A stretch of 64,000 nt of DNA from an uncultured Opitutia bacterium. Lineage in GTDB: Bacteria; Verrucomicrobiota; Verrucomicrobiia; Opitutales; UBA953. The position numbers were made by a program, and so were the translations under genes. Below are positions 9,966 to 12,199 of the stretch, piece by piece; within the stretch, counting starts at the first letter, position 1, and each line of letters begins with the position of its first letter. The notes under the pieces were generated by a model. The model did not search any database. It was not told the origin of the DNA and worked only from the letters and a program-made list of their open reading frames with translations. The DNA lies in the NCBI GenBank assembly GCA_945957395.1, contig CAMFKE010000001.1:1-64000 (forward strand). The letters run 5' to 3'.

Positions 9966-10124
9966 ATGTCCCAGCACAACAGCTTCAAGAGCGGTGCCGC
10001 TTCCGGCGGTAACAAGCGCAATGTCCTCAAGCGTTTCGAGCGCGTCGAGCTTCTCCAGAAGCGCGGTGCCATCAAGACCGTCACCCGCGTGACGGCTCTC
10101 CCGAAGACCAAGCCCGATGCGTAA
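9966..10124 (+). CDS. Small basic protein of the PVC superphylum
   Basis: A 52-residue highly basic protein, MSQHNSFKSGAASGGNKRNV at the N-terminus and ending RVTALPKTKPDA. The central NVLKRFERVELLQKRG stretch matches the small basic protein family conserved across Planctomycetes, Verrucomicrobia and Chlamydiae, proposed to bind RNA or the ribosome. This recognition is from memory of the family. It stands as a single gene with its own terminator at 10143-10171. Its location next to rpsB-tsf fits a translation-related role but does not prove it. The Shine-Dalgarno is weak (AGAAAG). Confidence 0.88.
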   Translation: MSQHNSFKSGAASGGNKRNVLKRFERVELLQKRGAIKTVTRVTALPKTKPDA

Positions 10125-10142
10125 TCGCGCCTGTCGCACACG

Positions 10143-10171
10143 AAAACCCCGCCCTTGCCGGCGGGGTTTTT
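10143..10171 (+). terminator. Rho-independent terminator after the small basic protein gene
   Basis: A perfect 11-bp stem (10143-10153 with 10160-10170) with a 6-nt loop has A residues at the left base and five T residues at the right. It begins 18 nt after the stop codon. Confidence 0.9.
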
Positions 10172-10243
10172 GCTTTGAGCGGGTCGCCCGGTTTGCGTGC
10201 GCTTGACTTGCCGACCCGGCGCGACAGGTTCCGCGGGGTTCAC

Positions 10244-10294
10244 ATGATGCACCGCGGCGTCACGCTTCTTCTTACCGGCCGACTTCTTCCCTAG
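10244..10294 (+). CDS. Putative leucine leader peptide upstream of leuA
   Basis: This 16-codon open frame reads MMHRGVTLLLTGRLLP then TAG. Five of 16 residues are leucine, all encoded by CTT, arranged as CTT-CTT-CTT and CTT-CTT, whereas surrounding genes favour CTG and CTC. A GGGG run lies a few bases before the ATG. It lies ~220 nt before leuA and is followed by a terminator-like hairpin at 10360-10405. This is the layout of a leu attenuation leader, in which ribosome stalling at leucine codons senses charged tRNA-Leu. No homologue is asserted; function is inferred from codon content and position. Confidence 0.6.
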   Translation: MMHRGVTLLLTGRLLP

Positions 10295-10359
10295 GGGAAG
10301 CAGACCAATTTTCGCGCGGACAGCGGGCGCCGCCATAGACACGAAGGCCCGCAAAAACA

Positions 10360-10405
10360 AAGAGGGGAGATTCAAGAAACGGCGCAGACCGTCGTCTTCC
10401 CTTTT
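10360..10405 (+). terminator. Candidate attenuator hairpin in the leuA leader
   Basis: AAGAGGGGAGA (10360-10370) pairs with TCTTCCCTTTT (10395-10405) over 11 positions including two G-U pairs. An inner stem ACGG/CCGT lies inside the loop. The 3' arm ends in four T residues. The 3' arm sequence CTTCCC also occurs in the leader peptide (10286-10291), next to GGGAAG after its stop, so alternative pairings exist. Attenuator function is inferred. Confidence 0.5.
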
Positions 10406-10513: not shown

Positions 10514-12199
10514 ATGAACTCCGGCGCCATCAAGAAATACCGCCCCTTCGCCTTCGGCCCCAAGCTCACCGACCGCCGCTGGCCCGACAACACCATCTCC
10601 CGCGCCCCCGTCTGGTGCTCCGTCGACCTGCGCGACGGCAACCAGGCGCTCGCCGTGCCCATGACCGTTCCCGAGAAGCTCGAACTCTTCCGCGAGCTGG
10701 TCCGCATCGGCTTCAAGGAAATCGAGATCGGGTTCCCGTCCGCCTCCGACACCGAGTTCGCCTTCACCCGCGAGCTCATCGAGAAGAAGCTCATTCCGGA
10801 CGATGTGACCGTGCAGGTGCTCGTGCAGTGCCGCGAGCACCTCATCGACCGCACCTTCGAGGCGCTCAAGGGCGTCAAGAATGTCATCATCCACATCTAC
10901 AACTCCACTTCGCCCCTGCAGCGTCGCGTGACTTTCGGCGACGCCACCAAGGAATCCATCCGGCAGATCGCGGTGGACGGGGCGCGCATGGTGAAGGAGC
11001 GGGTGGGGCGCCTGCCTGAGGCGAACATCCGCCTGCAGTACTCGCCCGAATCGTTCTCGGACACCGAGGTCGAGTTCTCCCTGGAGGTGTGCGTGGCGGT
11101 CATGGCCGAGTGGAAGCCCACCGCGCAAAAGCCCATTATTCTGAACCTGCCCGCCACGGTGGAGTGGGTCACCCCGAATGTGCACGCCGACCAGATCGAG
11201 TGGTTCTGCCGCAACATGAAGGACCGCAAGGCCGCCCTCATCTCGCTGCACACGCACAACGACCGCGGCACCGGCGTGGCCGCCACCGAGCTGGGCCTCA
11301 TGGCCGGTGCCGACCGTGTGGAGGGCACGCTCTTCGGCAACGGCGAGCGTACCGGGAATCTGGATATCGTGACCGTGGCGCTCAACATGTACACGCAGGG
11401 CGTCGAGCCCGGCCTGGATTTCACCGACATCCGTCGCATCCGCGAGGTGTACGAGCGCACCACGCGCATGAGCGTGCACGACCGCCACCCCTACGCCGGC
11501 GACCTTGTGTTCACCGCTTTCTCCGGCTCGCACCAGGACGCCATCAAGAAAGGCATGGATCTGCGCAAGGGCGCGCCCGCCGAGTCGGCGTGGGCGGTGC
11601 CGTACCTCACGATCGACCCGGTCGACCTGGGCGCCACCTACGAGGCCATCGTGCGCATCAACTCGCAGTCGGGCAAGGGGGGCATCGCCTACATCCTCGG
11701 TCGCGACTTCGGGTTCGACCTGCCCAAGCTCATGCACCCCGAGGTGGGCAACCTCGTGGGCGCCGAAGCCGACCGGCAGTCTCGCGAGCTTTCGCCCCGC
11801 GAGATTCGCGATTACTTCCGCAAGTTCTTCGTGAATGTGTCGGCGCCGCTGAAGCTGGTGTCGTTCGACGAGCACGAGGTGCCGGGTGAGACGCATGCGT
11901 TCGGGTGCGTCGCCAAGGTCGAGGTGAACGGCGCCACGCTGGACATTTCCGGCAAGGGCAACGGCCCCATCAACGCCTTCATGCACGCCCTGGCCGAGAA
12001 CGGCCTGAAGAAGGTTTCGCTCAAGGACTACCGCTCGCACGCCCTCGGCGGCGAAGGCTCGGCCTCCGAGTCGGCCGCCTATGTGTGCGTGGAGCGCGAT
12101 TCCGACGGCGCGAAGTTCTGGGGCTGCGGCGTGGACACGAGCATCGAGCTCGCCGGCCTGCTCGCCCTGGTCTCCGCCATGAACCGCGCCGGCGTTTAA
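10514..12199 (+). CDS. leuA: 2-isopropylmalate synthase (type 2 LeuA)
   Basis: The protein has 561 residues, matching the long fungal/actinobacterial-type LeuA rather than the E. coli type. It condenses acetyl-CoA with 2-oxoisovalerate, the committed step to leucine. The HMGL-like TIM barrel occupies about residues 30-320: SVDLRDGNQAL near the start, the metal-binding HTHNDRGTG motif and LFGNGERTGN. The C-terminal ~150 residues form the LeuA allosteric domain. It stands alone; leuB and leuCD are not in the window. A leucine-rich leader and candidate attenuator precede it. A strong terminator follows at 12223-12267. Confidence 0.97.
   Translation: MNSGAIKKYRPFAFGPKLTDRRWPDNTISRAPVWCSVDLRDGNQALAVPMTVPEKLELFRELVRIGFKEIEIGFPSASDTEFAFTRELIEKKLIPDDVTVQVLVQCREHLIDRTFEALKGVKNVIIHIYNSTSPLQRRVTFGDATKESIRQIAVDGARMVKERVGRLPEANIRLQYSPESFSDTEVEFSLEVCVAVMAEWKPTAQKPIILNLPATVEWVTPNVHADQIEWFCRNMKDRKAALISLHTHNDRGTGVAATELGLMAGADRVEGTLFGNGERTGNLDIVTVALNMYTQGVEPGLDFTDIRRIREVYERTTRMSVHDRHPYAGDLVFTAFSGSHQDAIKKGMDLRKGAPAESAWAVPYLTIDPVDLGATYEAIVRINSQSGKGGIAYILGRDFGFDLPKLMHPEVGNLVGAEADRQSRELSPREIRDYFRKFFVNVSAPLKLVSFDEHEVPGETHAFGCVAKVEVNGATLDISGKGNGPINAFMHALAENGLKKVSLKDYRSHALGGEGSASESAAYVCVERDSDGAKFWGCGVDTSIELAGLLALVSAMNRAGV

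Follow-up and report, generated by a model that had tools for sequence, protein, structure and literature searches.

Does the short leucine-rich reading frame that precedes leuA in an uncultured Opitutia bacterium sense leucine on behalf of that gene? The window analyzed here, a stretch of 64,000 nucleotides, carries on its forward strand a frame of 16 codons (10244-10294; ATGATGCACCGCGGCGTCACGCTTCTTCTTACCGGCCGACTTCTTCCCTAG) that encodes the peptide MMHRGVTLLLTGRLLP and ends in a TAG stop codon. All five Leu codons of the frame (codons 8-10 at 10265-10273 and codons 14-15 at 10283-10288) are CTT, which is unusual because CTT is chosen for 11% of leucines across seven genes located in the window. 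An earlier note on this DNA described the frame as a probable leucine-attenuation leader, and the gene behind it is indeed genuine leuA. It encodes a 2-isopropylmalate synthase of 561 amino acids (10514-12199, forward strand) that matches TIGR00970 with 728 bits against a cut-off of 697, and it is the gene that the leader would regulate. Upstream on the same strand, a gene whose small basic product matches TIGR04137 (75 bits) occupies 9966-10172 together with its terminator. The terminator-like site near 10151-10172 is strong and separates the leader from upstream transcription; leuA therefore requires its own promoter. The fold of the whole leader region is unexceptional (z -1.49), so the window alone is not enough to settle the matter, and it is conservation in relatives that does so.

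The conserved part of the leader is a small hairpin that the earlier note overlooked. CTTCCC (10286-10291) at the end of the frame pairs with GGGAAG (10295-10300) and places the TAG stop codon in the loop. This hairpin, designated H1 (10286-10300, forward strand), folds at -6.6 kcal/mol in the window and was traced by alignment of 52 distinct leader loci, by folding, and by a whole-genome model search. The loci came from LeuA searches of the window's family (79 genomes), its order (223 genomes), and a collection of named genomes, after which the upstream regions were examined. About ten families of Opitutales (f1, f3, f4, f5, f8, f11, f15, f20, f21, and f23) possess an element composed of a TTGACA-type promoter, a Leu-rich frame ending in LLP, and the hairpin CTYCTCCCC-NNN-GGGGAG, with a stop codon inside the loop or shortly beyond the hairpin. 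Frames end either in LLP followed by a stop codon within the loop, or in LLPxGE or LLPxGDMK followed by a stop codon just after the hairpin. The element is missing before leuA in other families and in g5, a large genus within the family of the window. In genus g5 (L014, L015, L017-L023, L025, L026, and L028-L030), leuA closely follows the small basic protein gene with no leader between them, so this genus either lost the leader or never acquired it.

A covariance model built on H1, designated R1, was searched against whole genomes; its training set included the window, and the window's score is thus not independent. Within the window's own genome, the leuA leader is the only significant place (E 0.0013), and no further copy reached significance (next match E 3.2). 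Over 273 genomes of the order, R1 gave 46 matches at E up to 0.0015, of which 43 lie just before leuA when their coordinates are compared with the places of LeuA. The three matches not assigned to leuA are one inside a coding gene (G223:C119), one at the end of a contig (G017:C2), and one in genome G288. Matches outside the order were weak. Off-target matches in L275, L277, L279, and L280 resemble coding sequence or ordinary terminators and were for this reason dismissed as chance.

The promoter is predicted strongly in relatives and weakly in the window. At least five of the six bases of TTGACA are present upstream of the frame in 44/46 leaders of relatives, and the median distance from the end of the -10 element to the start of the frame is 13 nt. 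Position relative to these leaders points to TTGACT (10203-10208), a spacer of 16 nt, and a weak CAGGTT (10225-10230) as the predicted leader promoter of the window (10203-10230, forward strand). CAGGTT ends 13 nt before the frame, and the window promoter is too weak to be called by a strict consensus scan. With the -10 element placed about 13 nt before the frame, the transcript should have only a few bases ahead of the start codon, and the frame should accordingly be almost leaderless. The predicted start of transcription thus lies upstream of the frame; a start beyond 10294 would, according to the earlier note, have counted against a leader.

Both the frame and the hairpin carry marks of selection. 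Among 54 distinct leuA loci that possess the core hairpin, taken without any filter for frame or leucine, we asked which frames run open for at least 8 codons and reach a stop codon within 24 nt. The leucine frame, in which CTC is a codon, does so in 54/54 loci, ending at the hairpin, whereas the other two frames do so in 0/54. The alignment of relatives proposed in the earlier note therefore finds the Leu-rich frame persisting rather than lost. The codon that precedes the invariant CTC encodes Leu in 44/46 leaders, and because all four CTN codons occur there, the conserved feature is leucine itself. CTC is fixed in 45/46 leaders. The exception is the window, which has CTT; its H1 3' arm contains the matching A, and CTT/AAG in place of the CTC/GAG of the others constitutes a compensatory pair change. 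Single-base codon changes in the leader frames are synonymous in 49% of cases compared with about 24% expected. The Leu content of the frame body is 28% in loci partly selected for Leu, or 22% without the Leu filter, versus 9% in control frames. The stop codon resides in the hairpin loop in 26/46 leaders; in the remaining ones, it follows within 9-15 nt of that point. Judging from these comparisons, selection is acting on both peptide and hairpin.

The attenuator hairpin described in the earlier note exists. Bases 10361-10370 pair with 10395-10404 (AGAGGGGAGA / GTCTTCCCTTT) at -16.2 kcal/mol, followed by a T tract of only four bases, TTTT. This second hairpin (10361-10405, forward strand) is a possible terminator special to the window's genome. 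A simple terminator scan was passed only by its inner stem plus CTTCCCTTTT; the region contains 4 terminator-like sites versus 0.8 expected. By a simple score, 3% of shuffled sequences were at least as good as the second hairpin. Intrinsic termination between the frame and leuA is thus weakly predicted in the window, and no counterpart of the 10361-10404 hairpin, by conserved sequence or by place, was found among relatives. Of the two hairpins in the window leader, H1 is kept with its compensatory change, while the 11-bp hairpin is not conserved. In 9/11 loci from the family of the window, the most terminator-like structure of the leader is H1 with the T tract behind it. Outside this family, T tracts are mostly missing from the leaders, and T-run terminators are mostly absent in group B. 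A second hairpin in relatives, designated H2, is clear within some groups, and it was rejected as an element conserved across relatives because its general signal is weak (mean z -0.49).

In silico masking of the window leader by a ribosome, followed by computed folding, connects these structures to translation. Without a ribosome, H1 and the terminator both form. A ribosome at the last CTT codons abolishes H1, GGGGAAG pairs with the 3' arm of the terminator, and the probability of the terminator stem falls from 0.98 to 0.37. When the ribosome occupies the stop codon, the terminator forms. The earlier note had stalling on the first CTT triplet free GGGAAG, but the computed fold for that position still contains H1 (P 0.92) and the terminator (P 0.98). 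According to these folds, the last two Leu codons would be a workable stall site in the window and the first triplet would be the wrong place. A 2:4 pairing of GGGGAAG with the terminator 3' arm is possible in the window and is special to it. Over 46 leaders, downstream sequence offers the GGGGAG arm of H1 no more partners than expected; the arm is, if anything, less complementary to it than chance (mean z +0.40). A family-wide antiterminator through the H1 3' arm was rejected on this basis: no classical 2:3 antiterminator is visible, and one based on GGGAAG is not a shared mechanism. A ribosome on the upstream Leu codons, the expected first stop under starvation, leaves H1 free to fold, so a simple model in which H1 is the terminator does not fit.

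Could the conserved hairpin and peptide end serve another purpose? The core CTCCC..GGG is nearly invariant, beyond the needs of pairing alone, as might be expected if H1 were a protein-binding or other structural element for which the leucine frame matters little. We consider this the least probable of the explanations, since the frame is open in 54/54 loci, is Leu-rich, and shows a synonymous bias. Some stalling peptides end in Pro-stop, and a C-terminal Leu-Leu-Pro before the stop codon could arrest the ribosome in response to free leucine. LLP persists in about ten families, either directly ahead of the stop codon or separated from it by a few codons, and at codon -3 it is the amino acid Leu that is conserved. 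Against such an arrest peptide, the sequence outside LLP varies freely, many leaders carry at least three codons after Pro, and H1 pairing already accounts for CTC and CCC; we regard it as very unlikely.

Translational attenuation deserves more weight, although it too is improbable as the general explanation. Leu codons of the upstream frame would pair with the leuA initiation region and control access of ribosomes, a scheme put forward for the LEU element that precedes leuA in Actinobacteria. There, Leu codons and the leuA Shine-Dalgarno sequence form the base stem of a pseudoknot (Seliverstov et al. 2005, PMC1262725). Group D (one family, 7 loci) agrees with this scheme. Pairing between the body of its frames and the region of the leuA start greatly exceeds that of shuffled sequences (mean z -2.5), its alignment shows the pairing GGCCU/AGGCC, and no intrinsic terminators were found in it. 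Group D leaders thus look like translational switches in the style of the LEU element. That hallmark was found in group D only: the window and groups B, C, E, and F gave no signal of leuA-start pairing, with z near 0 in the window's group. Moreover, the accessibility of the leuA start did not change consistently with ribosome position, and a switch of this kind was rejected.

A leucine leader-peptide attenuator of leuA is, in our judgment, quite probably the best explanation for the locus. Comparison of the sequences shows the frame with its need for leucine, and likewise H1, the placement of the promoter, and the association with leuA; by this measure the element is a real leucine leader. It most likely acts as a leucine sensor that switches leuA on when leucine is short. 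A sigma-70 promoter would start the transcript a few bases before the leucine-rich frame, so that ribosomes load almost at the 5' end, and their progress along the Leu codons would report the supply of charged leucyl-tRNA. Because the final Leu-Leu-Pro codons lie in H1 along with the stop codon, ribosome position would decide whether the hairpin folds. With ample leucine, we infer, the ribosome finishes and leaves, H1 and/or the following hairpin forms, and transcription ends early. With scarce leucine, ribosomes held at the terminal Leu codons would keep H1 open and leuA would be transcribed. The nearest relatives of the window appear to use H1, together with its T tract, as the terminator. 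In the window, the 10361-10404 hairpin may end transcription, and GGGAAG would pair with its 3' arm only with a ribosome on the last CTT codons. What survives of the strategy put forward in the earlier note is a conserved, translated, Leu-rich leader that would control leuA; its terminator and antiterminator do not extend to a general scheme.

The best terminator candidate in the window's family is H1, T tracts are mostly missing elsewhere, and in group D pairing with the leuA start is predicted; the sensor is therefore common to the families and the output is not, the output step in the window being one that we infer. A conserved antiterminator, which defines the textbook mechanism, was tested and not found, and for this reason we file the leader as a variant of the leader-peptide attenuator. 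It is conceivable, though rather doubtful, that the leaders form a separate Opitutales-specific class, without an antiterminator, in which the decisive event is whether the hairpin enclosing the stop codon of the frame is kept open by the translating ribosome, and in which the output (H1 terminator, other terminator, or leuA-start pairing) is exchanged between families while the sensor stays fixed.

Several known systems resemble this leader. Enterobacterial leuL (Rfam RF00512, Leu_leader) likewise places a leucine-codon leader peptide before leuA; the Opitutales frame differs in being shorter, nearly leaderless, and without a shared antiterminator. A stop codon between paired segments is a feature of leaders of the trpL/leuL type, and it is found here as well. 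RF00512 did not match over the frame and gave a chance match of 13.6 bits (threshold 50) over the terminator of the upstream gene; no Rfam family matched the leader at gathering or relaxed thresholds. The actinobacterial LEU element shares a leucine-rich frame before leuA, conserved structure at the leucine codons, and many members without a clear terminator (PMC1262725), whereas the conserved part in Opitutales is a local hairpin closing on the stop codon of the frame and leuA-start pairing is confined to group D. In ilvB leaders known from Actinobacteria, among them ilvB-II of Corynebacterium, branched-chain codons overlap the terminator hairpin, an arrangement that H1 shares in the window's family (PMC1262725, PMC10272879); these leaders differ in target gene (ilvB), phylum, and sequence. 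No relevant report of a leucine leader in Verrucomicrobiota was found in the open-access papers searched, and as far as found the element is new to the phylum, in agreement with the earlier note.

The leader would extend ribosome-sensed control of amino-acid synthesis to Verrucomicrobiota. Its signature, a promoter followed by a near-leaderless Leu-rich frame whose stop codon sits in a CTCCCC/GGGGAG loop, offers a means of finding further members. If the sensor is fixed and the output changes, the leaders would illustrate the evolution of these switches. Among the members, Cerasicoccus maritimus (L048) and others with named records are open to direct tests.

Some further leaders merit mention. 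In group D (family f8: L162, L167, L187, and L192-L195), the upstream frame, through its Leu codons and its start, pairs both with the region of the leuA start and with the GGCAAGU that follows H2. Other leucine-rich frames precede leuA in L073, L198, L203, L210, L211, and L214; their hairpin sequences differ (e.g., CTTCCTTAGGAAG), and several place a stop codon within the hairpin loop. Contigs labeled Spirochaetes and Nitriliruptoraceae (L060, L062, L064, and L065) have a leucine-rich frame and a strong terminator before leuA, an arrangement of classical appearance.
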